Assembly (NCBI GenBank): GCA_030538605.1 | Contig: JAUNTQ010000001.1 | Coordinates: 41,085 to 105,084 of the forward strand | Direction of reading: 5' to 3' | DNA: 64,000 nt | From: Pseudomonadota bacterium | GTDB lineage: Bacteria > Pseudomonadota > Gammaproteobacteria > Burkholderiales > Burkholderiaceae_C | Shown: positions 43,791 to 59,363 of the stretch, one piece after another | How positions within the stretch are numbered: the first letter of the stretch is position 1 | Layout of the letters: every line of letters starts with the position of its first letter | Translations under genes and position numbers: made by a program | The notes under the pieces: generated by a model | Told to the model about the DNA's origin: nothing | Seen by the model: only the letters and a program-made list of their open reading frames with translations | Database searches by the model: none

Positions 43791-43840
43791 CTTTCCGCGC
43801 GGCTGTCCCAAGGGGTTGATTTTTGAATATGTTGATATTG

Positions 43841-43922
43841 TCGTATCTAAACTACGATTGGGTGCGCCATATCAAATTGACTTTCGATTGGAAAAGTTGT
43901 AAAAATCGTAGTATGGCTACGA
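43841..43922 (+). promoter_or_regulatory. Promoter of abiEi/abiEii bracketed by two inverted repeats
   Basis: TTGACT (43877-43882), 17 bp and TAAAAA (43900-43905) form the promoter. Inverted repeats TCGTA-N7-TACGA (43841-43857) and TCGTAG-N5-CTACGA (43906-43922) flank it, the second covering the ATG at 43913. AbiEi is known to repress its operon by binding two such repeats. No Shine-Dalgarno is present, so the mRNA may be almost leaderless. Confidence 0.75.
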
Positions 43923-44650
43923 CAAGTTCAAGTAAGCTAAACGCGCTCTACACCCGGCTGGCACCGGGAAAGCCGCTGACCTCGGAGGACTTGGTGACGC
44001 TGGGCATCTCTGCCGACCTGGCCGTTCACTACGTCCGGGAAGGGTGGCTCACGCGTCTGGCGCGGGGAGTGTTCTGCCGTCCGAACGACGTCCCGGCGCT
44101 CCATCCCAGCCTGCTGCTGTTGCAGCGCCAAGTCGAGGGGCTGCACGTCGGCGGCAAGTCGGCGCTGGACTGGTACGGTGTGCGCCAGTACGTGTCGCAG
44201 CAGCCGGTGCTGCACCTGTATGGCTGGAAGGCAGCGCGCTTGCCGGAATGGTTCACTGAACGCTTCCCGGCCGAGTACCACCGCAAGCGCCTGTTCGATG
44301 AGCAGCCGGACGCCATGCTGCACGTTGGCCCGTTCGAGAAGCGCAGCGGGGCGCCGCAAGTGTCGGCGCCGGAGCGCGCCTTGCTGGAACTGTTGAGCGA
44401 AGTCGGTGTGCGTCAGCCCTTGCAGGAAGCCCGCGAACTGGTCGAAAGCGCCTACAGCCTGCGCGCCGATCTGCTGCGCGAGTTGTTGCTGCACTGCGCG
44501 AGCGTCAAGACCGTGCGGCTGTGCCTGCAACTCGGCCGCGAGGCGTCATTGCCCTGGGCGGCCAAGCTCGACCCGGCCTCGCTGCCGACGGGCAGTGACC
44601 GGCCTTGGGTGTCCCGCTCGGCTGATGGCCTGCTGGTGCTCAAGCCATGA
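43913..44650 (+). CDS. abiEi: AbiEi, type IV toxin-antitoxin antitoxin
   Basis: The 245-residue product has an N-terminal winged helix (LNALYTRLAPGKPLTSEDLV, about residues 8-28, with VREGWLTRLARGVFCRP as the wing) and a C-terminal antitoxin domain (GGKSALDWYGVRQYV, then APERALLELLSEVG), each cited in part. In the AbiE system AbiEi counteracts the AbiEii nucleotidyltransferase without direct binding and represses the operon. It overlaps abiEii by ATGA. The start at 43913 lies inside an operator; an open frame extends upstream but is AT-rich and non-conserved. Confidence 0.88.
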   Translation: MATTSSSKLNALYTRLAPGKPLTSEDLVTLGISADLAVHYVREGWLTRLARGVFCRPNDVPALHPSLLLLQRQVEGLHVGGKSALDWYGVRQYVSQQPVLHLYGWKAARLPEWFTERFPAEYHRKRLFDEQPDAMLHVGPFEKRSGAPQVSAPERALLELLSEVGVRQPLQEARELVESAYSLRADLLRELLLHCASVKTVRLCLQLGREASLPWAAKLDPASLPTGSDRPWVSRSADGLLVLKP

Positions 44651-45453
44651 ATCAGACCTATCTCGATACCGCGCGCCAGCTGACGCAGGTGGCGCCGTTG
44701 GTGTTCGTGGATGACACCTTTGCCCTGAAGGGCGGCACGGCGATCAATCTGTTCGTGCGCGACATGCCGCGTCTGTCGGTCGATCTCGATCTGGTGTTTC
44801 CCGAACACACGCTGCCGCGGGACGAGGCGTTGGCGCGCATCAACGAGGCCGTTCGGCAAGCTGCCGAGCGGCTGAAGAAGCGAGGGTTCCAGACGCACGC
44901 ACCAGCGGCGGCAGCAGGGGAGACAAAGCTGCTTGTGCGGCGCGGTTCGATTCAGGTCAAGGTCGAAGTCAACTTCGTCATGCGCGGCACGGTGCAGCCG
45001 GTGCGCCGCGCTTCGCTCACGCCGCTTGCCCGCGACGTGTTGATGGCCGATCTGGAGATTCCGGTGGTATCGCTGGAAGACGTGTACGGCGGCAAGCTGG
45101 TGGCGGCACTGGATCGGCAGCACCCGCGCGACCTGTTCGACGTGATGCAGCTCTTTGCGCACGAGGGCATCACGCCCGGCATCCGGCGTGCCGTCGTGGT
45201 CTATTTGGCCAGCAGCAATCGGCCGATCCACGAAGTGTTGTTCACGCCGTTGCGGGACATCCGGCATGACTACGCGCACAACTTCCAAGGCATGACGGCC
45301 GAGACGGTGCCGCTCGATGCGCTGCTCGCCGCGCGAGAACGCATGGTGCGCGAAGTCCAGCAGGGCTTGGACGACGACGAGCGGCGCTTCCTGCTGTCGC
45401 TGGCCGCCGGTACGCGTCCGCGGAAGATGAAGTGCCGGGCGGATGGTGTTTGA
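44647..45453 (+). CDS. abiEii: AbiEii, nucleotidyltransferase toxin
   Basis: The 268-residue product carries the nucleotidyltransferase motif KGGTAINLF...SVDLDL near residues 28-47 and a later essential motif KLVAALDRQHPRDLFDV near 150. AbiEii-type toxins arrest growth reversibly, some by adding nucleotides to tRNA ends, and abort phage infection. The catalytic motifs are intact and it is coupled to abiEi by a four-base overlap, so the pair looks functional. Confidence 0.9.
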   Translation: MNQTYLDTARQLTQVAPLVFVDDTFALKGGTAINLFVRDMPRLSVDLDLVFPEHTLPRDEALARINEAVRQAAERLKKRGFQTHAPAAAAGETKLLVRRGSIQVKVEVNFVMRGTVQPVRRASLTPLARDVLMADLEIPVVSLEDVYGGKLVAALDRQHPRDLFDVMQLFAHEGITPGIRRAVVVYLASSNRPIHEVLFTPLRDIRHDYAHNFQGMTAETVPLDALLAARERMVREVQQGLDDDERRFLLSLAAGTRPRKMKCRADGV

Positions 45454-45496
45454 GGCCTCTCAGCCGCAGTTCAAGATATCTCGCGGATCGAGGTTG

Positions 45497-45582
45497 TTTG
45501 TCCGAAATGGACCACAGTTTTCGGACAAAATGCTTGCCTGAGGTCCGTAAAACAGCTACAAACATCGGACAACCATGTCCGA
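45497..45582 (+). promoter_or_regulatory. Promoter of the DUF6088 operon bracketed by two inverted repeats
   Basis: A perfect palindrome with 11-bp arms (TTTGTCCGAAA, 11-nt spacer, TTTCGGACAAA) spans 45497-45529. A second, TCGGACA-N4-TGTCCGA (45565-45582... arms ending at 45582), covers the ATG at 45575 and shares the same half-site. Between them TTGCCT (45534-45539), 17 bp and TACAAA (45557-45562) suggest the promoter. Confidence 0.75.
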
Positions 45583-46288
45583 CCTCAAATCAGCTGTACT
45601 GTCCCTCGTCGACGCCGGCGGGGTGAGCCATGTCTGGGTGCCGACCGACTTCGCTGCTTTCGGCAGTCGTGATGCCGTCGACAAGACTTTGCAGCGCCTG
45701 GTCCGCGACGGTGAGCTGCGGCGCATCGACAGGGGCTTGTACGACAGGCCGACGATGAACGGCCTCACGAACCGCCCTAGCAGCCCAGACTACCGGGCCG
45801 TGGTGGATGCCATCGCGCGTCGCGATCAGCTCCGGCTGCTGGTGGATGGCATGACGGCAGCGAACGACCTTGGCCTGACCGATGCAGTCCCCGCCCGCGT
45901 GACGATCCACACCGACGCCAGACGCCGGTCCGTGAAACTGGAAAACCTCGTCATCGAATTCAAGCAGACGGCACCCAGCCGCCTGTATTGGGCCGGGCGG
46001 CCCGCCATGCGTGTGGTGCAGGCCCTGCACTGGCTCAGGGACACGCTGGCCACCGATCGGCCGCAGGTCCTGGGCAGGCTGGGCACGCTGCTCGAGAACC
46101 CGGTCCACGGTGATGCCGTGCGCAAGGATTTGCTGGAAGGCTTCGGCACGTTGCCGACCTGGATGCAGGGCGTCGTGCGCGAGCTGCCGGGATGCGATCC
46201 CAAGGTTGCGACCGCCACACTGCTCAAGCGACCCAGATCCACGCCAAGACGGCCTCGGCCGAGGAACACCTTGGGAGTGGCTGCTTGA
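45575..46288 (+). CDS. DUF6088 (AbiEi-like) antitoxin/regulator
   Basis: The 237-residue product has a winged-helix N-terminus (WVPTDFAAFGSRDAVDKTL, then LVRDGELRRIDRGLYDRP, about residues 20-60) and a C-terminal domain of the AbiEi type (VDGMTAANDLGLTDAVPAR, IEFKQTAPSRLYWAGRP). DUF6088 proteins usually precede an AbiEii nucleotidyltransferase toxin. Here the next gene is a short unknown protein that overlaps its stop codon (TTGA), so the usual toxin is missing or replaced. Confidence 0.82.
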   Translation: MSDLKSAVLSLVDAGGVSHVWVPTDFAAFGSRDAVDKTLQRLVRDGELRRIDRGLYDRPTMNGLTNRPSSPDYRAVVDAIARRDQLRLLVDGMTAANDLGLTDAVPARVTIHTDARRRSVKLENLVIEFKQTAPSRLYWAGRPAMRVVQALHWLRDTLATDRPQVLGRLGTLLENPVHGDAVRKDLLEGFGTLPTWMQGVVRELPGCDPKVATATLLKRPRSTPRRPRPRNTLGVAA

Positions 46289-46647
46289 ACGCCGACTGCC
46301 AGACCGTGATCAAGGCCGCCAGCTTCGAGCTGTGGGTGTTTGTTCTTGACGCCGTGGCGCGCGCGGGCATCGCCGTCGGGAGCGTTCTGGAGGACTTCCG
46401 GGGCTGTCGGATGCCTAACGGGCCCTTCTGCGTCCTGTCCGCTGTCAGGAGGCGACTACGATGCAAGGGCGGCCTGTCGCAGTCGAAAGCATTGGGGCGC
46501 CTCGACCGGGCCGCCGAAGCCATGTTCGCAAGGGCTTTCGGCGATGTTCCTCGCTTGGGCACGGTGCAGCCTGTCGCCCCGCGGCTGCAAGAGGCGGTCG
46601 GCGTCGCAGCCCTGTGGCAAGCACTAGGAAGAGGGGGGGCCGCATGA
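46285..46647 (+). CDS. Small protein of unknown function between DUF6088 and the AbiJ-like gene
   Basis: The frame of 120 codons begins with TTG 46285, which overlaps the DUF6088 stop (TTGA), or possibly with GTG 46306. Its TGA overlaps the ATG of the next gene (ATGA). Overlaps at both ends argue that it is a real coupled gene. The product has a helix FELWVFVLDAVARAGIAVGS, a basic middle (SAVRRRLRCKGGLSQSK) and a helical tail (LQEAVGVAALWQALG). I recognise no family. It could be a toxin, an immunity factor or a domain split from a larger gene. Confidence 0.55.
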   Translation: MNADCQTVIKAASFELWVFVLDAVARAGIAVGSVLEDFRGCRMPNGPFCVLSAVRRRLRCKGGLSQSKALGRLDRAAEAMFARAFGDVPRLGTVQPVAPRLQEAVGVAALWQALGRGGAA

Positions 46648-47555
46648 TCGACTACTTCAGCGATCGCGAACACGGACCTGTCGCCCGCACCGAGGAAGCC
46701 ATCGCGCCAGCCGTCTGGGCGGCCATGGTCGCCACCGTCCAGGGCCTGATCAACAGCGGCGCGTTCGGTCAGCGCTTCCCTGAGCGCTGCGCGGATGGGC
46801 AGGCGGTGTGTGGATGCGACGAAGCCGCCTTCGGTGCGGCGGTCGTCGGCGAGATCCGCGGTTTGGACTGGCCGCTGCAAACCACCAAAAGCGTGGAAGA
46901 GGGCTTCAGGTCGAGGCAGGAACCCTTTGCTCCGGATACCCTCGTTGTCCTGGACTTCGTGACATTCGTTCACGCCATGGTGGCCAAGCCCATCCAGCGC
47001 GAATACCACAAGTTCATGCGCCACGACCATCTGGCATTCGACCAGGAAGCCGGTCAGGCGGATTTCCGCGCGACGATCAATCGCTATTTCGCGCGCAACG
47101 GCCTGGCCTTTGAAATGCAGCCGACAGGCCGCGTCGTTCGCCTGCTTCCTCCCGTCGTCGACCAGGCGCTGCAACGCACCACGTTCAATACCGGCGAGCG
47201 CACCCTGGATCTCTTGCTCGAGGAAGCACGTACTAAGTTTTCAGATCCGAATCCGCTGATCCGGCGCGAAGCGCTGGAGCGGCTGTGGGATGCATGGGAG
47301 CGCCTCAAATCCTTGGCGGACCCATCCAATAAGAAGCACTCGGTTCATCTGATTCTGAGTGCGGTCACGACGGAACCGACGCTCTATGCAAGGCTGAATG
47401 CCGAAGCGGCCGAGTTGACGTCGATAGGCAACGACCACCTCATCCGGCATTACGAGGTCAATCAAAAGCCTGTGATCGACGCCGATCACGTTGATTATTT
47501 GTTCCATCGCCTGTTCGCGATGATTCAGGTAATGCTCAGGAAGAAGGCACCCTGA
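46644..47555 (+). CDS. AbiJ-like/HEPN-containing protein
   Basis: The 303-residue product begins MIDYFSDREHGPVART, a start I associate with AbiJ-type N-terminal domains. The C-terminal 100 residues are helical with RLNAEAAELTSIGNDHLIRHYE and ADHVDYLFHRLFAMIQVML, compatible with a HEPN RNase fold. AbiJ proteins act in abortive infection. It is translationally coupled to the preceding small gene. The canonical HEPN R-x4-6-H motif is not clearly seen; LIRHYE gives only R-H. The call is therefore moderate. Confidence 0.55.
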   Translation: MIDYFSDREHGPVARTEEAIAPAVWAAMVATVQGLINSGAFGQRFPERCADGQAVCGCDEAAFGAAVVGEIRGLDWPLQTTKSVEEGFRSRQEPFAPDTLVVLDFVTFVHAMVAKPIQREYHKFMRHDHLAFDQEAGQADFRATINRYFARNGLAFEMQPTGRVVRLLPPVVDQALQRTTFNTGERTLDLLLEEARTKFSDPNPLIRREALERLWDAWERLKSLADPSNKKHSVHLILSAVTTEPTLYARLNAEAAELTSIGNDHLIRHYEVNQKPVIDADHVDYLFHRLFAMIQVMLRKKAP

Positions 47556-47747: not shown

Positions 47748-48656
47748 ATGAGGAATACCATGGATCGATTTTCAGGCCACGAATCGTTCGTGTGCCGCTA
47801 TGGATGGCTGCCCAAGGTCCATGCGGCGGTAACGGCTGACGCGACGTTGCTGCGCAACGAAGAAAACGCCATGAATGTCCTGGGCATTGGGCGGAACATG
47901 GTGAAGTCGCTCCAGTTCTGGGCCGAGGCCACCGGCGTTCTGAAGCCGGCTGAGGGCGGCGGTCACGAAGCCGGGCCGGTCGGGGCCAAGCTGTTTGGCG
48001 GCCAGGACGCCTGGGATCCGTATCTGGAGTCGCTCGAGTCCTTGTGGCTGATCCACTGGCAGCTGTGCAGCGAGGGGGGACTGGCGGCATGGAACGAGGT
48101 CTTCGGCGAAGGCAAACTCATCCGTTTCGAGCGTAAGCAACTGATCGCCGCGCTGGCTCGCCGCGGCGAGGGGGCGGCCCGCCCGCTGGCCGCAAGCACG
48201 CTCGAGCAGCACTCGTCGATCTTCATCCAGTCCTATTACCAGGAAGAGCGGGGTAGCGACGATACGTCGTGGTCGCCGCTGCAAGACCTGGGGCTGCTGA
48301 GGGCAGTCAAGGGGGAGGACGGAAGAACCATCTTCAGCAGTGAACCGCGGGCGCCGATGGGGCTCTCGCTGCGTGTGTTCGCCATGGCGTTGATCGATTT
48401 CATCGCCGACGAAGCGCGCAGCGAAACGTCGGTCGATTTCGTCAGCCTGCTCAAGGGGGTCTACAGCCCCGGCGTCGTGTTCCGACTGGATGAACAGCAG
48501 CTGCGGGTCTTCGTCGAAGCCCTTTGCGCCGGTCCGCTCAAAGGCGCGCTCCGCTTCGTCGATACGGCCGACACCCAAAGCCTCGTGTTGAACATCAAGA
48601 AACTGGACCCGCAGTACCAACTGCGGCAGGCAGAGGAGGCCGACGCGCATGTCTGA
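47748..48656 (+). CDS. DUF4007 family protein, first gene of the five-gene operon
   Basis: The 302-residue product contains the DUF4007 start region RFSGHESFVCRYGWLPK (residues about 6-22), then LGIGRNMVKSLQFWAEATG near residue 45. Winged-helix-like segments and a domain ending ADTQSLVLNIKKLDPQY follow. DUF4007 proteins are typically found beside PAPS-reductase-like genes of DNA-sulfur-modification-like loci, and may bind DNA. GGGGGA stands six bases before the ATG at 47748; an ATG at 47760 is equally possible. The gene overlaps the ATPase by eight bases. The 192 bp before it hold no gene and should carry the operon promoter. Confidence 0.85.
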   Translation: MRNTMDRFSGHESFVCRYGWLPKVHAAVTADATLLRNEENAMNVLGIGRNMVKSLQFWAEATGVLKPAEGGGHEAGPVGAKLFGGQDAWDPYLESLESLWLIHWQLCSEGGLAAWNEVFGEGKLIRFERKQLIAALARRGEGAARPLAASTLEQHSSIFIQSYYQEERGSDDTSWSPLQDLGLLRAVKGEDGRTIFSSEPRAPMGLSLRVFAMALIDFIADEARSETSVDFVSLLKGVYSPGVVFRLDEQQLRVFVEALCAGPLKGALRFVDTADTQSLVLNIKKLDPQYQLRQAEEADAHV

Positions 48657-51600
48657 TCGCATTCTGCAAGCTATCGAGCTGGGCGGTGGCCACACGCGAT
48701 CCATCGCGCTCGACAGGGATCTGAACGACGGATCTGCCGTCAAGAAGTATTTGTTGACGCCGGCGGCCACGAGCGCCCTCAAGCAGGTCGGCCAAGGCCT
48801 GATCGACAACCAAGCGCAGCGTGCCTGGAAGATCATGGGCCCCTATGGCAGCGGAAAGTCCGCGCTGGGCGTCATGTTGGCCCAGCTCCTGAGTGGTCGC
48901 AAGGCCCATCCCGCCGCCTCGCTGGCAATCACCAAGAGCGCGCCGCAACTGCTGCCGCTGTTCAAGACGGCCAACCGCTTCCCCTTGGCAATTGTTGGTG
49001 CCCGCGTGTCCATCGGCGCAGCGCTGGCGCACGCCATCGGCGAGGCACTGGGCCGTCTGGGCAAAGGCAAGGCGGCGTCGGCGTTGAAAAAGCAGTTGGA
49101 CCTGGACGCGCTGACGTACAAGGGCATGCCGGTGAACGCGGTGGCCGGCACTTTGGCCGCGGACTTTGCGCAGGCCACGGTTTCGGAAGGGTTCGATGGC
49201 GTCCTGCTGCTCATCGACGAGGTCGGCAAGTTCGTGGAGCATGCCGCTTTGCATCCCGACGTGGGCGACCTGATCGCGCTGCAGCAGATCGCCGAACACG
49301 CCTGCCAGCCCGAAGACGCCAAGCTGGCTGTCGTCGCCATGTTGCACCAGCACTTCGCTAGCTACGCCGCAGGGGTCGGCCGGTCGCTTGGCGACGAGTG
49401 GCAGAAGGTGGCGTCCCGGTTTGACGAGATTGCCTTCGACGAACCGGTCGAGCGCTACGCGCACTTCGTGGCCCACGCCATCGGCGCCAAGCCCGCGATC
49501 CACTCGAATCCCGAAGTAATGCGTGAAGCGCAGGCACTGTATGCATCGGCCAAGAAGCTGGGAGTCCTGCGCGCTCTGACGGCAGCCGACCATTTGCTGT
49601 TCGACCATGCGCAAGTGTTGTACCCCTTGCATCCGTTCAGCGTCGCAGCCCTCGCCGTCGTGGCCAAACGGTATGGGCAGAGCGAGCGCTCATTCCACGC
49701 TTTCCTGCGCGGAAACGAACCACTCGGACTGCGAGACTTCGCCGATCGGCACAACGTCGATCCCGCTGTCTGGTTCAGACTGCCCGAGGTGTTCGACTAC
49801 CTCGCCAGTGGCCATGGCCTGCGTTTCCGGGACCTAGGTGCCGAGCGTCGCTGGGCTTTCGCGCTGGCTGCGATGGAGCGGGAAACCTTCGATAAGCAGG
49901 CCCTGCGGGTGCTCAAAAGCATCGCGGTGCTGGAACTGGTCTCAGCCGGCCTGGGGGGCGCCGTCACTGCCGAGACGATCGCATTCGCCCTTGGAAATGC
50001 GACCAGGGCCTCGGTGGCGAAGCTCTGCGACGGCCTGGTCGAGCAAGGGCTACTCGTGCGCCGCCGAGCGAAGGCGGAATACGCCTTCGCGGTGTCGGAA
50101 GCGGTCAACATCGAAGCCGTCTACGAGAAGGCAGCACGAGGCGGCGAAGACGAGCTGGTCATCACCGGGGTCTCGCACGCCCTGTCGCAACGGCTCATCG
50201 TAGCGAACAAGCACTACGACCGATCCGGCACGGTCCGCACCGTCGGCGTTCTTGTCGGCTCACCCGCGCATTGGCCGAAGCCCCCGGCGTTCAAGTCCGA
50301 CGAGGCGCGTCCCGATGGCTGGATCAGGTTGGTCCTGGTCATGGCAGGCTCCGATGACGAGGCCCTGGCGCTGCAACGCCTGAAGCAGGAGGCCGATCCT
50401 TTCAGCGTCTGCGGCAGATTGTCGCTCACGCCGGAGAGCCGTGCGGCGCTGGCGGAGTACTCCATCTGGCTGGCAGTGCAGCGCGAGGTCACCAGCAAAC
50501 GCCTGGACCCCTGGACCAGCCAGTACGTGGCCGGCCGTTTGCACGACGTTTCGGAACAAGTTAGCCAGTTGGTGCTGTGCCAGCTGATGCCCGTTCCCGG
50601 CAACCCGGGGCCCGAGTATTGGCACAACGGCCGCCTCATCGCCAACAGCCGGCACATGAACGCCAGCCAGCTCGCCTCCTGGCTGTTCGATTCGGTGTAC
50701 AGCGAGACGCCGAGGATCGTCAACGAACTCATCAACAAGGACAAGCCGCCATCTGCCATCGTGCTGGCGCGCCAGCGGATGTTCGAGTTCATCCTCGGCG
50801 CAGACCCGGCGGGCCAGCTGTGCGGTGCCAGCGAGTTCCCGCCGGAGCGGCTCATCCACAACACCCTGCTGCGGCAGACCGGCATCTGGCGCGAGGACAA
50901 CGGTCGCTGGAGCCTGGCCGAGCCCACTACGGACGCGGCGATCGACATCTCGAAGGTGTGGGCCGCGATCTCGCAGGCGCTACGCGCCTCCGAAGCCCCG
51001 ACCTTTGCGGGTGTCCTGGCGGCACTCGCGGCGCCGCCATTGGGCGTCAGGGCGGGGCCCGCAGGCATCTGGATTGTCCTGTACCTGATGATCCATCGCA
51101 GCCAGTGCGCGATCTTCGAGCGGGGCACGCTGATCCTCGAACTGACGAACGAGCACCTGCAGCGGATGTACAAGAACCCGCAGACGTTCGAACTGCGTGA
51201 ACTCGCCAATGGAACGGACAGCAGGAAGTTGTTGCACGAGTACCAGACCGCTTTTGCTGCGATCGGCTGCGCGGTCCGTGGCGAGCTGACCTACCTTGAG
51301 CTCGCACGCAGCCTGTACCGCTGGTACGCGCGGCTTCCGGAGTTCAGCTTGCAGACCGCGCGCATCGGCAAGGATGCGAGCTTGGTGCGATCGGTCCTCA
51401 AGAAGGCGCAGGATCCCATCAAGCTGCTCACCTCAAGCCTGCCGGAGACGTATGCACAGGCCCACGTGAAAGTGCCGTTCGGCGAATGGCTGACGGCGAC
51501 GCTGTCGGACCTGGGAATGGCGCATCGCCGGCTGCAGGAAGCCATGTCCGTGGAGATCAGCCAGGCCTTTGCCATCGCCGGTCCGCTGAGCCGCGTGCGC

Positions 51601-52104
51601 AACCAGCTCCAGGCGGAATGTGCGGGCACCGCTTCCGACCTGGCAGACATCCGGCTGAAGAGCTTCATCCTGCGATGCACCGACCTGTCGCTCACGGATG
51701 AGAAATGGCTGGATTCCATTGGAAGCCTGGTGGTCCAAAGACCGCTCGACGCCTGGGCCGATGAGACCATCGGCAAGTTCGCGCAGGAGCTCACCGAGTC
51801 GTGCGGCCGGTACCGACGCTGGATGCGCATGGTCACGGAGCGCGGCTTGGCGCCGCGGGCCTCCGAGCGTTTTGTGGGCCTCACGCTGACCCTGCCAGGC
51901 GGTCAGGAATCGTCGTTGTTCGTGGCGACCTCCGACGCATCCACTGCGGTCGCACGCAGCGTCATGGCGCTGATCACCGAGGAAACCGGAGGGAACGCTC
52001 AGCTCGCCGCGTCGGCTCTCGCGCAGGCTCTGCTCGAACTGCAAACCCCCGTCACATCCGCTTCGCAAGAGGAGAGCGCCGATGGCAACCGAAAAGCAAG
52101 TTAG
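48649..52104 (+). CDS. Large P-loop ATPase, second gene of the five-gene operon
   Basis: The 1151-residue protein has Walker A MGPYGSGKSALG near residues 64-74 and Walker B GVLLLIDEVGKFVEH near 183-197, the pattern of BrxC/DUF499-like AAA+ ATPases of defence systems. A winged helix (RRRAKAEYAFAVSEAVN) lies near residue 470 and the rest is long and helical. There is no signal or membrane segment. It overlaps DUF4007 by eight bases and the PAPS-reductase-like gene by 23. By analogy it could be a DNA-tracking or assembly motor, but this is an inference. Confidence 0.85.
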   Translation: MSDRILQAIELGGGHTRSIALDRDLNDGSAVKKYLLTPAATSALKQVGQGLIDNQAQRAWKIMGPYGSGKSALGVMLAQLLSGRKAHPAASLAITKSAPQLLPLFKTANRFPLAIVGARVSIGAALAHAIGEALGRLGKGKAASALKKQLDLDALTYKGMPVNAVAGTLAADFAQATVSEGFDGVLLLIDEVGKFVEHAALHPDVGDLIALQQIAEHACQPEDAKLAVVAMLHQHFASYAAGVGRSLGDEWQKVASRFDEIAFDEPVERYAHFVAHAIGAKPAIHSNPEVMREAQALYASAKKLGVLRALTAADHLLFDHAQVLYPLHPFSVAALAVVAKRYGQSERSFHAFLRGNEPLGLRDFADRHNVDPAVWFRLPEVFDYLASGHGLRFRDLGAERRWAFALAAMERETFDKQALRVLKSIAVLELVSAGLGGAVTAETIAFALGNATRASVAKLCDGLVEQGLLVRRRAKAEYAFAVSEAVNIEAVYEKAARGGEDELVITGVSHALSQRLIVANKHYDRSGTVRTVGVLVGSPAHWPKPPAFKSDEARPDGWIRLVLVMAGSDDEALALQRLKQEADPFSVCGRLSLTPESRAALAEYSIWLAVQREVTSKRLDPWTSQYVAGRLHDVSEQVSQLVLCQLMPVPGNPGPEYWHNGRLIANSRHMNASQLASWLFDSVYSETPRIVNELINKDKPPSAIVLARQRMFEFILGADPAGQLCGASEFPPERLIHNTLLRQTGIWREDNGRWSLAEPTTDAAIDISKVWAAISQALRASEAPTFAGVLAALAAPPLGVRAGPAGIWIVLYLMIHRSQCAIFERGTLILELTNEHLQRMYKNPQTFELRELANGTDSRKLLHEYQTAFAAIGCAVRGELTYLELARSLYRWYARLPEFSLQTARIGKDASLVRSVLKKAQDPIKLLTSSLPETYAQAHVKVPFGEWLTATLSDLGMAHRRLQEAMSVEISQAFAIAGPLSRVRNQLQAECAGTASDLADIRLKSFILRCTDLSLTDEKWLDSIGSLVVQRPLDAWADETIGKFAQELTESCGRYRRWMRMVTERGLAPRASERFVGLTLTLPGGQESSLFVATSDASTAVARSVMALITEETGGNAQLAASALAQALLELQTPVTSASQEESADGNRKAS

Positions 52105-52909
52105 GCACATCCTGAGCCTCTCCGGTGGCAAGGACAGCGCGGCACTCGCGCTGTACATGCGCGATCGGGTCCCGACCATGGAATACATCTTCAGCGACAC
52201 ACGCAAGGAGTTGCCGGAGACGTACGAGTACCTGGAGCGGATTTCCAGCTACCTGGGCAAGGAGGTCGTCCGGCTGAACGCAGATGTCGGATTCGACCAT
52301 TGGTACGACATGTACGGCGGCATGATTCCGTCCAATCACCGGCGCTGGTGCACGCGGGCGCTCAAGCTCAAGCCTTTCGAGCAGCATTGCGGCGACGACG
52401 AGGTGATCAACTACGTCGGCCTGCGCGCCGACGAGGAGCGCAGTGGATACATCAGCCACAAGCCGAACATCAAGGCCGTCTACCCGTTCAAGGAAGACGG
52501 CTTGATTCTTCGCGACATCGAGGACATTCTCAAGACCTCCGGCGTCGGCATGCCGCCCTATACGAAGTGGGGTCGGACCAGGTCGGGCTGCTATTTCTGC
52601 TTCTACCAGCAAAAGATCGAGTGGGTACGTCTCAAGGAGACCCATCCCGATCTCTACGACAAGGCCAAGGCCTATGAAAAGCCCTTCGAGCCCACCGGCA
52701 ACTTCTTCACGTGGAGCCAGGGAGAGAGCCTGGAGGAACTGGAGAAGCCTGCCCGGATGGAACAGATCAAGCGGGAGCATGTCATCCGGATCGACCGATT
52801 GAAAGCCCGCAAGGCCAACGCAACCCTGCTGGAGGTCTTTGCGGCCGAAGACCAAGTCGAGGAGCCGGACGATGACGATGAGCAAGGTTGCCTGGTCTGC
52901 CAGCTCTGA
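52082..52909 (+). CDS. DndC-like PAPS-reductase-family protein, third gene of the five-gene operon
   Basis: The 275-residue product has the PP-loop SLSGGKDSAALAL near residue 12, the second loop AMET-like YIFSDTRKELPETYEYLE near 36, a cysteine in RRWCTRALKL near 96 and a CYFC pair in RSGCYFCFYQQ near 168. Enzymes of this family include PAPS reductase and DndC/SspD, which activate DNA for phosphorothioate modification. The cysteines could hold an iron-sulfur cluster. The start lies 23 bp inside the ATPase gene. No cysteine desulfurase accompanies it. Confidence 0.85.
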   Translation: MATEKQVRHILSLSGGKDSAALALYMRDRVPTMEYIFSDTRKELPETYEYLERISSYLGKEVVRLNADVGFDHWYDMYGGMIPSNHRRWCTRALKLKPFEQHCGDDEVINYVGLRADEERSGYISHKPNIKAVYPFKEDGLILRDIEDILKTSGVGMPPYTKWGRTRSGCYFCFYQQKIEWVRLKETHPDLYDKAKAYEKPFEPTGNFFTWSQGESLEELEKPARMEQIKREHVIRIDRLKARKANATLLEVFAAEDQVEEPDDDDEQGCLVCQL

Positions 52910-52983
52910 TCCGCATGCCGTGCCTCATCTGCGTCACCCGGCCACCACCACGCCAATGAAGCCTCCTCACCGGACCTACCTGC

Positions 52984-55407
52984 ATGTCTTTTAAGTTCAA
53001 AGCGCGCGTCCTCTTGGAGCTGGGCGCGGAGCTGATCAGCTCTGACGCCGTGGCCTTGTACGAGCTCATCAAGAACGCGCTGGATGCAGGCTCTAAGGAA
53101 GTCGAGATCCGCATCCGTATCGCGATGCAGCATTCGGCCTACACGCAGCTGCGCACCCTGTTGCTGCAGCACGTCCGGGAAGCGCGCACGCGCCGGTCGG
53201 CTGCCGCGACGTTCGACAGCGCCGAATTCCACGCGATGGTGCTCCAGCAGCTGGAGGATCAAGCGAGTTCCGCCACGCGTGAGCGATTCACCGACGCGTA
53301 TGGGGAGCCGGCCACGCCGCAGGCGGCCCTCGAGGCACTGGACCGCGCCTATTTGCGGGGAAACTATCTGCTCGTGAGAGATGGCGGCTGCGGCATGTCG
53401 CCGCAGAGCCTGGAGGAGAGTTATCTCACCGTCGGCACGCCCACGCGGCTGCTGGAGAAGAACGCGGCCATCGCCAACGCCACCTCCGAAGTCTCCCGAC
53501 TGCAGAATCCGAAGGCGGAAACTGGCCTGCCATTGGGCGAGAAAGGCATTGGCCGACTCTCCGCCATGCGACTGGGGCACTTCGTCCGGGTGAAGACCAA
53601 GACGAAGGGGGCAGACTTCTGGAGCCTGCTCGACCTGGACTGGCGACCCGCGTTCAGTGACCCGACGCTCGATGCATCAGCCTTGGACTTTCCCGTCGAG
53701 ACGGAGGCCTGCGAAGCCAAGGATGTGGCGCACCAGGGGACGTCGATCTACATCCGCGACCTGCAAAGCGACTGGTCTGAAAGCAAGGTGCGCCGGATCG
53801 CTGCAGCGGACCTGGCCAAACTGGCGGATCCGTTTGCGCGGCTGCGCGCGAACAAGTTCATGGTGGTCAAGTTCCAGGAACTCGACATCAGTGTGCCGAT
53901 TCTCGACCGGGAGCCGCTGCGCGCCGCCGACGCGATCTGCTCGGCCAAGTTCAGCTACGACGAATCCAACGAGCCCCAACTCGCATTGCACGTCGACTAC
54001 AAGACCTTCACCAGAGAGCGAACGGACCACCTGAGCGAGGAGCATCTCAGGGCCTGCGTCCGAGAGGAACCAGGCACGAAGAAAAAGCGCTCGCTGCTGC
54101 TGGATGCCGAGATCGTCGCGCGCGCCTTGAAGCATGTCGGCCCGTGGGAGTTGAAGTTCTACTGGTTCAACCGCGGGCGCATCATGCGCAAGACGCCTGA
54201 GTTGTGGAACGACTCGATCCGCGATTTCCTCGCGCAATGGGGGGGTGGCTTCCTGGTCTACCGGGACGGGTACCGCGTGTACCCCTACGGCGAGCGTTCA
54301 GACGATTGGCTTGACCTGGACCGCAAGGCCTTGGCTGCGAGCGCCTACAAACTCAACCGCGCGCAGATGGTGGGGCGGCTGGAGATTACCTCCATCGGCA
54401 ACCCGTCCCTGCTGGACCAAACGAATCGTGAAGGCTTCCGGGACTCATATGACCGGGAGGCGCTGATCCGGTTGCTGCGCTACGTCATCCTGGGGTTCTG
54501 CCGCCCGTTTCTGGAGCAGGTCGAGCGCGAAGTCGAGCCGCCCATCGCCGAAGTCGTGGAGGAAGTCCAGGAGCGCCTGAGCACGTCGCGCGACATTGCC
54601 GTCTCCAGCCTGAAGAGCATGCAGGGCCGGCTGCCCGACGAGAGCGCGAACATCGGCAAGGTGATGCACCACCTGGAGGAGGTGAGCGAGGCCTGGGAAA
54701 GAGCCAAGCTGCGCATCGCCGGGTTCGAGGAGACCATCGAAAGCTTCGTTCACCTGGCGGGTGTCGGCCTGATGCTGGAATTCATCGCGCATGAACTGTC
54801 GCGCGTGACCCAGGACTCGCTGCGCGCCGTCGCCTCGGGGAAGTTTTCTCCGCAGGTGGTCGAGGCCCAACTGAAGACGCTCGAAAAACGCGTGCGCATC
54901 CTCGACGAACTCAGCATTCCTGGCCGTCAGATCCGCAAGGAGTCCAACCTCTTGGAGTTGGTGGAGCTGCTGTGCGAGTTCCACGAAGCCAAGAGTGTGC
55001 GCCACAACATCAAGATTTCCGTGAAGTCGCGATCGAAGGCGAAGTTCGTCGAGACCCTGGAGCGTGGCCAGTTTCTCCAGATCCTCGACAACCTGTTCAG
55101 CAACTCCTTCTACTGGTTGATGAATCGGTTCGATGCATCGGTCGAAGGTCAGATTTCCATTGAGCTGGATGCGGGCGCGCGCACCCTGCATTTCACCGAC
55201 AACGGCCCCGGCATCCCTGCCGAGCGCAGCGAGGCGGTCTTCGATCAGTTCGTGACGACCAAGCCACCGCGCGAGGGTCGGGGCCTAGGTCTGTACATCG
55301 CCCGGCGCCTGGCCACGGAAAACGGTGCACGCCTGTACCTTGGCCCCGCCGGCGATGATGGGATGCATCGGACCTTTGTCCTTAATTTCAATAAAGAACT
55401 GCCATAG
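52984..55407 (+). CDS. Protein with two GHKL ATPase modules, fourth gene of the five-gene operon
   Basis: The 807-residue product starts with a MutL/Hsp90/MORC-type GHKL module: N-box ALYELIKNALDAG near residue 30, DGGCGMS near 133 and GEKGIGRLSAMRLG near 185. At the C-terminus is a second, histidine-kinase-type module: an H-box-like FIAHELSRV with His603, N-box LDNLFSNSF near 701, TDNGPGIP near 738 and GRGLGLYIARRLA near 766. A helical linker with coiled-coil character (VEEVQERLSTSRD) joins them. It is 18 bp before the receiver-like gene. Two ATPase modules of different type in one chain are unusual. Confidence 0.85.
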   Translation: MSFKFKARVLLELGAELISSDAVALYELIKNALDAGSKEVEIRIRIAMQHSAYTQLRTLLLQHVREARTRRSAAATFDSAEFHAMVLQQLEDQASSATRERFTDAYGEPATPQAALEALDRAYLRGNYLLVRDGGCGMSPQSLEESYLTVGTPTRLLEKNAAIANATSEVSRLQNPKAETGLPLGEKGIGRLSAMRLGHFVRVKTKTKGADFWSLLDLDWRPAFSDPTLDASALDFPVETEACEAKDVAHQGTSIYIRDLQSDWSESKVRRIAAADLAKLADPFARLRANKFMVVKFQELDISVPILDREPLRAADAICSAKFSYDESNEPQLALHVDYKTFTRERTDHLSEEHLRACVREEPGTKKKRSLLLDAEIVARALKHVGPWELKFYWFNRGRIMRKTPELWNDSIRDFLAQWGGGFLVYRDGYRVYPYGERSDDWLDLDRKALAASAYKLNRAQMVGRLEITSIGNPSLLDQTNREGFRDSYDREALIRLLRYVILGFCRPFLEQVEREVEPPIAEVVEEVQERLSTSRDIAVSSLKSMQGRLPDESANIGKVMHHLEEVSEAWERAKLRIAGFEETIESFVHLAGVGLMLEFIAHELSRVTQDSLRAVASGKFSPQVVEAQLKTLEKRVRILDELSIPGRQIRKESNLLELVELLCEFHEAKSVRHNIKISVKSRSKAKFVETLERGQFLQILDNLFSNSFYWLMNRFDASVEGQISIELDAGARTLHFTDNGPGIPAERSEAVFDQFVTTKPPREGRGLGLYIARRLATENGARLYLGPAGDDGMHRTFVLNFNKELP

Positions 55408-55425
55408 CAGCGGGAGCAAGAACAG

Positions 55426-57399
55426 ATGTGGGGAATTACGACAGCGGTCGTGGTGGACGACGCCCTGGGCCCGCCCGGCCAGGGCTCGCTCCATGCCGAT
55501 GACAAGGACGCATGGATCGACTTTGTGAGTGCAGATGCGCCGGCGCAGGCCTTGCTGCTGGCCACGTTCGCAGCCACCGGCCTCAGTGATCTCGATGAAT
55601 TGCTCAGCGAGCTCACCAGTCACCCGGACCACATCGCTGCCCTGTGGGTTCACTACAACGACAACACCCTGGCTGCCGCCGGGTTGGACCGATTGTTCAG
55701 GACGTTTGCGTTGGACTGGACGGGTAAGGCCGAAAAGCCCCTGGCGGTATGCGCGGCGCTCGCCAACTTCGTGGGTGCGCAGGCGGTCAAGAAGTACTGG
55801 CGGATGGAGGACGCGGCCGCAGCCGTGGCCCAGGCCGACGTCGCATTCATCGATTTCTTCCTTGACGACAACGAGGTAGTTTCCGACGCACTACAGAGAA
55901 TTCGTAATCACAAGACCGAGCTTAGTGGAGCGAAACTCCTCTTCATCATGTCGTACAGGGCGGCCATCGAAACGCAGCAGCAGGTGCGTCAGATCGTGGG
56001 GTCGCGAACGGCATTCTTCGAGGTGATGGCGAAGACCGACGTGGAGACCGCCTGGGTCATCGAGAAGATCAAGTCCAAGAGTTCTTCCTACTTGGGAAAC
56101 AAGGCGCTGGAGAACGTGGCGCGCGAGCTGGTTGCGGCCACGCACGATGCCGCCAAGGAGTTCAAGGCGCAGTGCGACGACCTGGAGATTCACGACCTGC
56201 GGCTCTTTGACCTGGCGCGGCTGGTGAACGAGGGCGAGTCGATCGCGGCCTACTTGACATGGTTGTCCTCGGAATCCATTGCCGCCAAGATTCGACGGAT
56301 CAGCTCGACGAAGATCAAGAACACGGCCATCGATGCGGGTGCCATCGGCTTCACGGGCCAGATCAAGCAGGGCAAGGTGCTGTTCGATCTGTTCTCGGAG
56401 GTGGTGTTCGGACCGGGTCACCCGCCAGGGGAGCCTCTCCATTTCGGGGAGGTGCTGGTCACCAAGCCGTACCGCAGGCGGCCGTCACGAACCCTGGCGC
56501 TCAGTGCGCAACGAACGTCGGCGCGCAGCGGCAGTCCGATGAAGCCCACATCGCCCATGCGAGCGGCGCTGTCCGCCAAGAGCGCGTTTGCTCAGCGGCG
56601 CATCGAGCAACGGAGAGTCCAAACTCTCAGGGCCCTCGCGCCGGTCGCCCAGCAATCGTATGAGCCCCCACGGTACCTGCTTGTCTTGACGCCGGCGTGT
56701 GACTTGGCGCGTTGCTCGCCGTCGAAGATGGTTCTGTGCGTGGAGGGAACGGCCCAGGACATGAGTGACGTCAAGGTGCAGGCGCGAGAGAAGCTGTACG
56801 GCAAGCACTCTCAGGGGCTGCGCCACCTCTTGATGCTCGATGACCCGGGTGCGCCCGTGCTGATCACATGGCACAAGAATCAGAGCCTGATGCTTTCCGT
56901 GCGCGACATCATGGGCGGGAATTTCAAGCGTTTGGCGCAAATGAACGAGCTCTACGCGCAGGAGGTCAAGGAGGAAGTGCTGCGCGAACTGGGCCGCGTC
57001 GGCACCCAGATCGACCCGCCCCCTGCCTTCGCTTTGCACGCGACCCTGAAGTGGAAGGTCGGGGCGAATGCCCATGAAGCCGCGACGGACGATGACAGTT
57101 TTTTCTCAGCGATTCTTTCCTACTCGGAACAGTCCGACGACAAGTCGCCCACCGTCATCCTGTCCGATGAGTTCAAGAAGTGGGCAGCGGCCAAGGTACA
57201 GGACAGCCTGAATGGCCAGCCCGCCCATGCCAAACTGCAAAACAGCCTGAATGTGCTCACGCAGTCCGCGCAGTTCATCCTCAAGGGCGACCTCACGTTC
57301 CGCAAGCACGACTTGCTTGTTCGCGTGCTCGATGACGCGAATTCGAAGAATCAAGGCGGCGTGGTACTCGAACTCGTCCTCAGCTCGGATCTCCGTTGA
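55426..57399 (+). CDS. Receiver-like protein with long C-terminal extension, fifth gene of the five-gene operon
   Basis: The 657-residue product opens with a receiver-like fold: acidic pair VVVDDALG (Asp11-12), candidate phosphoacceptor FIDFFLDDN (Asp143), SYRA (Ser176) and Lys203 in VMAKTDV. It has an insertion of about 90 residues between strands 1 and 3 compared with ordinary receivers. The remaining 440 residues are unlike known output domains, with a basic linker (YRRRPSRTLALSAQR) and a YLLVLTPACDLAR segment that could bind a metal or ligand. It follows the GHKL gene by 18 bp and is probably its phosphotransfer or binding partner. Confidence 0.75.
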   Translation: MWGITTAVVVDDALGPPGQGSLHADDKDAWIDFVSADAPAQALLLATFAATGLSDLDELLSELTSHPDHIAALWVHYNDNTLAAAGLDRLFRTFALDWTGKAEKPLAVCAALANFVGAQAVKKYWRMEDAAAAVAQADVAFIDFFLDDNEVVSDALQRIRNHKTELSGAKLLFIMSYRAAIETQQQVRQIVGSRTAFFEVMAKTDVETAWVIEKIKSKSSSYLGNKALENVARELVAATHDAAKEFKAQCDDLEIHDLRLFDLARLVNEGESIAAYLTWLSSESIAAKIRRISSTKIKNTAIDAGAIGFTGQIKQGKVLFDLFSEVVFGPGHPPGEPLHFGEVLVTKPYRRRPSRTLALSAQRTSARSGSPMKPTSPMRAALSAKSAFAQRRIEQRRVQTLRALAPVAQQSYEPPRYLLVLTPACDLARCSPSKMVLCVEGTAQDMSDVKVQAREKLYGKHSQGLRHLLMLDDPGAPVLITWHKNQSLMLSVRDIMGGNFKRLAQMNELYAQEVKEEVLRELGRVGTQIDPPPAFALHATLKWKVGANAHEAATDDDSFFSAILSYSEQSDDKSPTVILSDEFKKWAAAKVQDSLNGQPAHAKLQNSLNVLTQSAQFILKGDLTFRKHDLLVRVLDDANSKNQGGVVLELVLSSDLR

Positions 57400-57751: not shown

Positions 57752-58012
57752 ATGCCGCCGACGTCACATCCACTGGTCACTACCGGCCAACTCGGCTCGA
57801 TGCTGCAGGCCGCGCGCAAGGCCCAAGGGCTGACCCAGTCGGCGCTGGCTGCCCGTATCGGTTTGAGCCAATCCCGTGTCTCTCATCTCGAACTCCACGC
57901 TCACGAACTGAGCGTGGAGCAACTCCTTGCATGGTGTGCGACGCTGGGCCTGGAGTTGGCATTGGAGGCGCGGGGCAGGGCGGTGGTGTCGGCGCCGACC
58001 ACGGATTGGTGA
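57752..58012 (+). CDS. HipB-like HTH antitoxin (island pair)
   Basis: The 86-residue product is an XRE-type HTH protein with AARKAQGLTQSALAARIGLSQSRVSHLE (cited in part: LTQSALAARIG and QSRVSHLE, about residues 27-48), followed by SVEQLLAWCATLGLELALE. It is followed one base after its stop by the HipA gene and preceded by a palindromic operator. Sequence identity with the backbone HipB at 12586 is low, so the two pairs are not recent duplicates. Confidence 0.86.
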   Translation: MPPTSHPLVTTGQLGSMLQAARKAQGLTQSALAARIGLSQSRVSHLELHAHELSVEQLLAWCATLGLELALEARGRAVVSAPTTDW

Positions 58013-58013
58013 C

Positions 58014-59363
58014 ATGGGACGTCGATCACACAGCCGCAGCCTGTCCATCTGGACCAATGGTGTTCGAGTCGGCCAATGGACGATTCCCGCTCGCGGAGAG
58101 ATGGAGCTGCAGTACGACGCGGATTGGCTTGCTGCCGACATGGGCCGGCCGTTGTCCTTGTCGCTGCCGTTCAATCTGCAGAACCTGCCGGTCAAGGGCG
58201 AGAAGGTCGCCAACTACTTCGACAACCTGCTGCCGGACAGCGACGCGATTCGTCGCCGCGTGGCCGAGCGATTCAGGACGGGTTCGACCGAGCCGTTTGA
58301 CTTGCTGAAGGCCATCGGGCGCGATTGCGTGGGCGCCGTCCAGATCCTGGATGAGGACGAGGTGCCCGCCGACTTCGATCGTATCGAGGGCGTGCCCCTG
58401 TCCGAGGAGGGTATCGAGCGACACCTGATCGAAACCGTTTCGCCACAGGCCTTCGCTGCGGGTCGGGATCCGGATGCGGACTTCCGCATCTCGCTGGCCG
58501 GTGCGCAGGAGAAGACGGCCTTCCTGTGGTGGGGCGGGCAATGGCTCGCGCCGCGTGGCGCCACGCCGACGAGTCACATCTTCAAGCTTCCGCTCGGCCT
58601 GATGGGGGGGCGGCGGGCGGACTTCAGCACGTCCGTCGACAACGAATGGCTGTGCTTGCGGTTGCTTAAGGCCTACGGACTGCCCGTGGCTGACGTCCGC
58701 ATCGCGACCTTCGGCCGACAGCGTGTGTTGGTGGTGGAGCGCTTCGACCGGCGCATCGCACCCAATGGGCAGTGGCTTATGCGTCTGCCACAGGAAGACT
58801 TCTGCCAAGTCGAGGGCTGCTCGCCATTGCGCAAGTACGAGAACGAGGGCGGTCCAGGCCTCAAGGCCCTGTTCGGCACGCTGCGGCAATCGGTGAATGC
58901 CGAGGCCGACATGAAGACGCTGATGGCGGCGCAGGTGCTGTTCTGGTTGCTGCGGGCGCCCGACGGCCATGCGAAGAACTTCAGCATCCAGCTTCTGGCA
59001 CGCGGTCGTTTCCAGTTGACCCCGCTGTATGACGTGATGTCGGTCTACCCGGTGTTGGGCGAAGGGCCCAACCAGTGGTCGCCGTATGAGATCAAGTTGG
59101 CCATGGCCCTGCTCGGCAAGAACCGGCACTGCGAGGTGCACGGGATCCAACGCAGACACTTCAACAGCACCGCGCAGAAAGTTGGCTACGCATCAACCGC
59201 CGAGCCGATCATCGAAGAACTGCTTGCTCGTACGCCAGCGGCCATTGCCGAGGTGCAAGCCGAATTGCCACAGGACTTCTCACCGCGTGTCCGCGATGCC
59301 ATCCTGGGCGGGCTTGAGCAGGCGGCCAGAACACTCGGTGGGATGCCGCCGTCAGCAGGCTGA
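58014..59363 (+). CDS. HipA-type kinase toxin (island pair)
   Basis: The 449-residue product has the N-terminal HipA domain (LSIWTNGVRVGQW), the phosphate-binding FRISLAGAQEKTAF near residue 160, SHIFKLPLG near 190, the catalytic loop PDGHAKNFSIQ near 320 and the metal-binding PLYDVMSVYP near 340. It is longer than the backbone HipA and of a different subgroup. The HTH gene precedes it directly. Kinase residues appear intact. HipA-type toxins phosphorylate translation factors; the target here is unknown. It is the last gene of the island. Confidence 0.88.
   Translation: MGRRSHSRSLSIWTNGVRVGQWTIPARGEMELQYDADWLAADMGRPLSLSLPFNLQNLPVKGEKVANYFDNLLPDSDAIRRRVAERFRTGSTEPFDLLKAIGRDCVGAVQILDEDEVPADFDRIEGVPLSEEGIERHLIETVSPQAFAAGRDPDADFRISLAGAQEKTAFLWWGGQWLAPRGATPTSHIFKLPLGLMGGRRADFSTSVDNEWLCLRLLKAYGLPVADVRIATFGRQRVLVVERFDRRIAPNGQWLMRLPQEDFCQVEGCSPLRKYENEGGPGLKALFGTLRQSVNAEADMKTLMAAQVLFWLLRAPDGHAKNFSIQLLARGRFQLTPLYDVMSVYPVLGEGPNQWSPYEIKLAMALLGKNRHCEVHGIQRRHFNSTAQKVGYASTAEPIIEELLARTPAAIAEVQAELPQDFSPRVRDAILGGLEQAARTLGGMPPSAG

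Follow-up and report, generated by a model that had tools for sequence, protein, structure and literature searches.

Which gene product serves as the restriction half of a DNA-phosphorothioation cassette in which neither SspE nor SspH has been found? In an earlier survey, 2,211 of 2,678 sspBCD loci had no known restriction partner (PMC8092258). The locus studied here, a run of five plus-strand genes, lies at positions 47748..57399 of a 64,000-nucleotide stretch (herein the window) of contig JAUNTQ010000001.1 from a Burkholderiales bacterium. Family-model matches identify genes 1-3 as sspBCD, the already described core of Ssp phosphorothioation; the last two encode a predicted histidine kinase and its predicted receiver/output protein. 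We propose that this kinase-receiver pair is probably the restriction or effector partner of SspBCD, and thus one concrete, recurrent candidate for orphan sspBCD loci. If the proposal is true, a two-component phosphorelay, normally a gene-regulation device, acts as the "restriction" half of a self-marking immunity. The core is known, and the partner is new as far as searches go: text searches of open-licence papers, which leave most subscription papers and preprints uncovered, listed no title or abstract opening that presents the pair as a partner for Ssp.

Recurrence of the pair with SspBCD and the place after sspD

In a single pattern scan with the receiver alignment, 84,980 species genomes yielded six loci, four of which hold SspB, SspC, SspD, kinase and receiver together (a Pseudomonas metagenome-assembled genome, L002; Rugamonas, L003; P. 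flexibilis, L004; Methylocaldum, L007); the other two comprise remnants only (L005) and a contig too short to be counted as a pair (L006, 3.4 kb). In an evenly drawn sample of 399 genomes from the order of the source organism, the receiver was found in 6, with SspBCD alongside in five. SspD reaches at least 180 bits in 12 of these 399 genomes; with G752 (without SspB and SspC) and G533 (a 4.9-kb contig, at a contig end) left out, the pair is present in 5 of the 10 evaluable SspBCD loci (the window and L017-L020), or 5 of 11 if the kinase-less short contig G533 is included. Two of the order's SspBCD loci carry SspE (L062 and L063; PADLOC ~1,500 bits, with part of the open frames of the others scanned), and four carry an SspH-like gene (L018, L020, L063 and L065; confirmed in L063 at 2,612 bits), L060 giving a partial match. 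A 27-bit match over 39 positions in G181 was left uncounted as a pair; its stretch, L021, shows no Ssp gene. Kinase relatives (E ≤ 1e-25) occur in 8/399 genomes of the order and stand beside SspBCD in five, with an expected overlap of 0.22 genomes (P = 3e-7).

Plasmids were searched through the kinase. Among 72,556 plasmid records, 16 hold kinase relatives (E ≤ 1e-30), and 15 of these have SspD within ~12 kb (0.02 expected by chance); in the remaining record (L076, Rhizobium BT03), a cytosine methylase and a Vsr gene take the place of Ssp. After three near-duplicate hits (H65, H74 and H75) were set aside, 13 of the 16 stretches were examined, and those among the 15 include Chloroflexota (L067) and alpha- (L068, L069, L072-L075, L077-L079), beta- (L071) and gammaproteobacteria (A. 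baumannii, L070). SspC, kinase and receiver stand together in 21 of 31 scored stretches, a number that is no frequency, as the stretches were mostly chosen by kinase or receiver matches; SspC served as the marker of the core because a simple open-reading-frame picker missed sspB and sspD of the window and some core genes elsewhere. The five families thus recur elsewhere, and the check that the earlier note had set for itself is passed.

The pair stays linked to SspBCD in no fewer than five gene orders, across two phyla. The 21 loci include sspBCD followed by kinase and receiver, kinase and receiver convergent with sspDCB, the pair inserted between sspBC and sspD (L067), kinase-receiver-desulfurase-sspBCD, and a pair lying some way off from the core. 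Kinase and receiver form one unit, with a correlation of 0.96 between their pairwise identities across the 21 loci; SspC and SspD correlate at 0.93 (19 loci). The correlation between SspC and kinase is only 0.45, still above all 2,000 shuffles. There are thus two stable modules, partly re-paired yet staying linked. On an SspC tree of 26 rows the pair changes at least four times and clusters no more than in shuffles (131/500 as low); this distribution is compatible with exchange, and long branches limit a finer reading.

Four sister sspBCD cassettes show what occupies the position that follows. Between them (L019, L061, L062 and L063), DNA identity of 75-86% sets in near the start of sspB and breaks off no more than 20 bp from the end of sspD; five of the six pairs were aligned (all but L062 versus L063), and those with L062 begin ~30-60 bp inside sspB. 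Beyond sspD stand the kinase-receiver pair in L019, a kinase/GmrSD/GHKL/helicase set in L061, SspE in L062, and SspE with SspH in L063. As L019 and L061 align again downstream (81% identity) at a gene identified by similarity as gyrB, the same chromosomal site has the pair in one genome and the other set in the other. We examined seven of the 64 kinase-less plasmid SspD records as controls (gene names as annotated); there sspD is followed by two hypothetical proteins and an FtsK protein (L114, L115), DUF262 and FtsK proteins (L116), a helicase/ATPase/PLD set (L117), a DUF262 protein (L118), a restriction endonuclease (L119) or BREX-like genes (L120). Because varied restriction modules follow sspD, the place is a restriction slot of which the pair is one occupant: it fills the slot of sspBCD cassettes where sister loci have SspE or SspE with SspH. 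The earlier note had described a module controlled by a two-component system; the relation is likely the reverse.

Apart from these, at least three of the 31 stretches have in common only SspFGH-like genes, a desulfurase, gyrB, genes for integrase, plasmid functions and regulators, one hypothetical (four loci) and a few small unnamed families. A family of 586-839-aa products common to L005, L016, L019 and L061 was rejected as a part of the system, being gyrB, a chromosomal flank. A gyrB-like gene neighbours all four of these loci with Ssp or the pair, of which L005 and L016 are decayed and keep pair remnants, and its vicinity is perhaps a defence hot spot. The hypothetical protein (250-406 aa) belongs to pair loci L068, L072, L073 and L079, with an annotated SAM-dependent methyltransferase beside it in L072 and L073. 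Downstream of sspBCD in both L061:10696-17768 and L117:9903-14290, genes for a helicase and for a GHKL or ATP-binding protein are joined by a PLD-family or GmrSD_N gene; these sets are possibly a further restriction module in the same slot. At L060:3-9229 sspBCD adjoins a 1282-aa DndH/SspH-like protein and a 1500-aa protein (weak SspC similarity), and at L120:3684-16678, on a Thermomicrobium roseum plasmid, sspBCD-like genes lie beside PglZ, BrxL and another DUF4007 gene, a locus that is either a hybrid of Ssp and BREX or the two as neighbours.

Core, kinase and receiver proteins

The five adjoining open reading frames of the earlier note were recovered at the same coordinates (Table 1), and, judged from adjacency, they appear to form one operon-like run, as it had claimed: genes 1 and 2 overlap by 8 bp and genes 2 and 3 by 23 bp, followed by gaps of 74 and 18 bp. 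The SspB, SspC and SspD models are matched nearly full length, all three with E ≤ 1e-117, so that the note's expectation of DNA sulfur chemistry holds, and its unnamed chemistry module resolves into the described SspBCD core. What it labelled "BrxC-like" and "DndC-like" are the Ssp versions: the second gene product scores 1654 bits with the SspC model versus 268 with the best BrxC model, and the third 392 with SspD versus 15 with DndC. The window's SspB also matches Pfam DUF4007 (193 bits), and the solved chain closest to it by sequence is SspB 6juf (E = 1.6e-20). Walker motifs are intact in SspC (Walker A GPYGSGKS at residue 64, LLLIDE at 186), as is the PP-loop SGGKDS of SspD, whose Cys 90, 170, 173, 270 and 273 are invariant in a 25-row alignment.

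Table 1. Features of the five-gene run, in window coordinates
Feature	Position	Strand	Description
sspB (DUF4007), 302 aa	47748..48656	+	triple winged-helix DNA-binding/nicking subunit by family; PADLOC SspB E 2.6e-118
sspC, 1151 aa	48649..52104	+	ORC/Cdc6-type P-loop ATPase; PADLOC SspC 1654 bits (E 0)
sspD, 275 aa	52082..52909	+	PAPS-reductase-family sulfur-transfer ATP pyrophosphatase; PADLOC SspD 392 bits, E 5.5e-118
Kinase gene, 807 aa	52984..55407	+	N-terminal MORC/MutL-like GHKL ATPase and C-terminal histidine kinase; Pfam HATPase_c_3 and HATPase_c
N-terminal GHKL module, best HATPase_c_3 stretch, residues 128-212	53365..53619	+
Predicted phosphorylated His603, H-box FIAHELSR	54790..54792	+	invariant in 24/24 rows
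Kinase catalytic domain, HATPase_c, residues 697-798, N, G1, F and G2 boxes	55072..55377	+
Receiver/output gene, 657 aa	55426..57399	+
Receiver domain, residues 3-225; Asp11, Asp12, Asp143, Ser176, Lys203	55432..56100	+
Predicted phospho-acceptor Asp143	55852..55854	+	29/29 alignment rows; 46/47 A1 rows, the other Asn
Predicted MazF-like SH3 barrel, output domain, residues 335-524	56428..56997	+	predicted structure
Invariant Cys425-Asp426 of the output domain	56698..56703	+	29/29 rows; 47/47 A1 rows

No SspA is present among the ten neighbours of the operon, which were scanned with family models. IscS can stand in for SspA as desulfurase (PMC8092258), so the locus needs none of its own; two IscS genes lie elsewhere in the genome (703 and 704 bits; TIGR02006 cut-off 643). 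The earlier note's treatment of a missing desulfurase as a gap does not stand. SspBCD together with IscS would likely mark the DNA of the source organism, with single-strand phosphorothioate as the expected mark. The two IscS genes are very similar and on different contigs (L022, adjoining an IscR gene, and L023), and may reflect a duplicate operon or a strain mixture in the assembly.

SspE, which combines DUF262/GmrSD_N with HNH, was not found in the organism's own assembly (92% complete): the sole GmrSD_N protein, on another contig (607 aa, L089:448-2271), has no SspE model match, is related instead to the PADLOC candidates PDC-M55C and HEC-05, and was rejected as an SspE. One SspH-like query against the assembly gave only a 264-residue FtsK-domain match, also rejected; SspF and SspG were not searched. 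DndD and DndE have no match among the five genes or the ten neighbours, and PglZ and BrxL are absent from those ten, the part of the genome searched for them.

The kinase combines two ATP sites. The motif ELIKNALDA precedes the best HATPase_c_3 stretch, and BbrUII/HgiDII are among the best named models for this N-terminal module; the HEF_HK model has no match in the window's kinase, and the relative in L007 reaches 22.8 bits against a cut-off of 24.1. Motif residues of both sites are invariant, together with His603, in every row of the kinase alignment (rows shorter than 700 aa, L016, and L076 excluded). Across 24 kinase and 29 receiver rows, the histidine-kinase and receiver residue sets are invariant or at least 90% conserved. 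The two proteins thus have the residues of a two-component system, and phosphotransfer to the receiver would be expected; at motif level this bears out the sensing and phosphotransfer pair suspected in the earlier note.

The receiver/output protein is less easily placed. Pfam, PADLOC and NCBIfam found nothing in the window's gene; Pfam over all members of a 47-member alignment of the family (A1) gave only a weak Response_reg_2 match in 3/47 (best E 0.0012). A sequence search of the PDB with the A2 profile had a cellulose synthase subunit as its best match (E 0.25), which was rejected. The best Foldseek matches have E values of 0.06 for the whole model and 0.44 for the C-terminal model, neither a secure match, and the structural match lists, as a re-examination of Foldseek's matches only, may miss the true fold. 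Within the predicted output barrel lies a low-confidence insert (~348-410) that is absent from most relatives shown. Three distant kinases (L076, L112 and L113) have neighbouring receivers with an xCD motif in a similar position; profiles fail to join these receivers to the window's family, and a common output domain would be a guess.

Proposed mechanism, trigger direction and rival explanations

Anatomy and linkage are observed, and from them we infer every step of the following scheme. SspBCD and IscS would put sulfur marks on host DNA, and the MORC-like clamp of the kinase would sense DNA that lacks the mark. The kinase would then fire and phosphorylate Asp143 of the receiver, whereupon the predicted MazF-fold output domain would be released and would likely stop the phage. 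Given the effector role, we regard unmarked DNA as the trigger at even chances and an output acting on nucleic acid as somewhat better than even; that the role holds with at least one of these two details right falls a little short of even. A wider proposal is more tentative, and we lean against it: one interchangeable kind of phosphorelay (a MORC clamp-kinase with a Cys-Asp MazF-fold receiver) may be the restriction arm for different self-marks, firing on unmarked DNA. At the same tentative level, the marks would be phosphorothioate via SspBCD here and 5-methylcytosine in published methylase-linked pairs. The scheme is directly testable: it involves only five genes and a defined set of catalytic residues, and SspE and SspFGH, which work with the same SspBCD, serve as two internal controls.

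The direction of the trigger can be approached through loci that have lost the core. Both receiver loci without SspC have a broken kinase, and all 21 with SspC have an intact one (Fisher P = 0.004; L076, L112 and L113 excluded, as their receivers fail the receiver model). The kinase of L016 is without residues 1-198, the MORC part, and no SspD match in the genome concerned (G627) exceeds 45 bits; in L005 only a stretch matching residues 570-672 is kept, beside an SspB remnant. If an active pair harms unmarked cells, losing SspBCD would select for a dead pair, and with two cases the decay is suggestive of an unmarked-DNA trigger. SspFGH is reported to be harmful to unmarked cells, opposite to SspE (PMC8092258). 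L112 is a possible exception to the pattern: its distant kinase is intact although Ssp is missing and a simple check for motif strings revealed no methylase.

Several observations weigh against the pair as the effector, or against details of the scheme. An SspH-like FtsK-type gene is present in 10 of the 21 pair-bearing loci, so that the pair is not always the sole candidate effector; in the other 11 the comparison with SspE models covered part of the open frames, and PADLOC was run on chosen frames, so that an SspE in some other locus could be missed. SspD occurs on 79 plasmid records, 64 of them (A. baumannii CP035931 included) without a kinase at E ≤ 1e-30. The receiver family is sparse, at 2/398 phylum, 6/399 order and 1/326 class genomes with the window's own counted (the second phylum match is weak and partial), and the window's receiver has no plasmid match at E 1e-5, its distant plasmid relatives having been reached via the kinase. 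The MazF-like fold comes from a predicted structure (Foldseek E 0.44) and leaves RNase activity unsupported, and a profile-profile comparison of the output domain with 21 MazF rows (19 distinct) was non-significant. The catalytic residues of MazF, which we take to be an Arg and a Thr (or Ser), correspond, as judged by eye, to positions that seem to vary in A1. Finally, the direction test has two SspC-less loci only, and decay alone could explain both.

Of the rival explanations, the one that survives best makes the pair a regulator that senses infection or mark density and adjusts SspBCD and nearby restriction modules, attacking nothing itself. Two-component pairs usually regulate, the loci with an SspH-like gene suit this view, and control of restriction-modification (R-M) systems was suggested by the authors of the methylase-linked pair (PMC8011034). 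We nevertheless consider it unlikely, though it deserves to be kept in mind: Pfam matches (E ≤ 1) to the 47 receiver-family members include no DNA-binding output domain, any other candidate effector family is shared by at most four of the 11 loci without an SspH-like gene, the pair of the sister loci stands where SspE or SspE with SspH would, and the kinase is broken in both SspC-less loci.

A second rival keeps the pair as effector and turns its trigger around: like SspE, it would need the sulfur mark, so that marked host DNA licenses it and a phage cue fires it. SspE works in this way with the same SspBCD core (PMC8092258, PMC13251355) and stands in this slot in sister cassettes. In the absence of SspBCD a pair of this type should do no harm, leaving the broken kinases of L005 and L016 unexplained, though these are only two loci; we rate it as rather unlikely, a shade below the regulator.

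The pair could also be a defence unit in its own right whose only tie to Ssp is a shared island. Defence genes cluster, and the defence setting claimed by the earlier note was confirmed: an AbiEi/AbiEii pair, a second AbiEi-like (DUF6088) gene and an AbiJ_NTD4 (PDC-S32) gene lie directly upstream of the operon (43823-47555 of the window), and HipA lies downstream (57927-59363). The pair is, moreover, missing from 6/11 order SspBCD loci and from most plasmid SspD records. With SspBCD, on the other side, lie 15/16 plasmid and 5/8 chromosomal kinases; the link persists through the different gene orders, including the pair between sspC and sspD; and the other families that recur in at least three of the 31 stretches are those listed above. 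An independent unit is already unlikely, and clearly more so than the two preceding rivals. The upstream AbiE-type and AbiJ_NTD4 genes were rejected as members of the system, having no relatives in at least three of the other stretches. New nucleotide- or base-sulfur chemistry, which the earlier note had allowed for and to which the wide variation of SspC (19-57% identity to the window's) might point, is highly improbable against the near full-length matches of all three core genes to Ssp models.

Comparison with known systems

Among systems with related components, Dnd differs in the DndC score of the window's SspD and in DndD and DndE, neither of which matches among the five genes and ten neighbours. 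Type 4 or phosphorothioate BREX shares DUF4007, a BrxC/SspC-like ATPase and a PAPS reductase, and keeps PglZ and BrxL in nearly all loci (PMC12839542, in its accessible part), whereas neither is among the window's ten neighbours. The paraMORC GHKL proteins of R-M systems and GHKL-Shedu have the same kind of N-terminal GHKL ATPase (PMC2292703, PMC12137116); the output in the window is a histidine kinase, not a fused nuclease.

Closer to the pair itself are the "TCS-like" (two-component-system-like) HEF_HK/Response_reg_2 pairs of 2021, which were linked to C5-cytosine methylases and type II R-M systems and likewise consist of a kinase with HATPase_c_3, a His box and HATPase_c adjoining a receiver gene (PMC8011034). 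The window's proteins fall below the cut-offs of both families, their partner is sspBCD rather than a methylase, and no C5-cytosine methylase or other R-M gene is among the ten neighbours. The accessible text of that paper is without Ssp, phosphorothioate, PAPS, DUF4007 or MazF and describes no output domain. Beside our three distant kinase-receiver pairs, L076 has an annotated cytosine methylase, L113 a methylase-like gene by motif, and L112 none recognised.

For the Ssp island of A. baumannii global clone 2, one sentence of speculation from 2025 hints at such a pair, and sspE is reported missing in 5,518/5,530 Ssp genomes of the species (PMC12421847). The A. baumannii record L070 has a like kinase and receiver convergent with SspBCD, and so a pair of like kind in a species mostly without sspE. 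L070, which may not be that island, is distant from the window (kinase 27% and receiver 11% identity; receiver 57 bits).

The nearest relatives are SspABCD-SspE and SspABCD-SspFGH, which have the same SspB, SspC and SspD core, allow IscS to replace SspA, and carry their effectors adjoining sspBCD (PMC8092258). At the window no SspE or SspH was found, and the kinase-receiver pair stands there instead; it is likely the third partner of sspBCD, after SspE and SspFGH.

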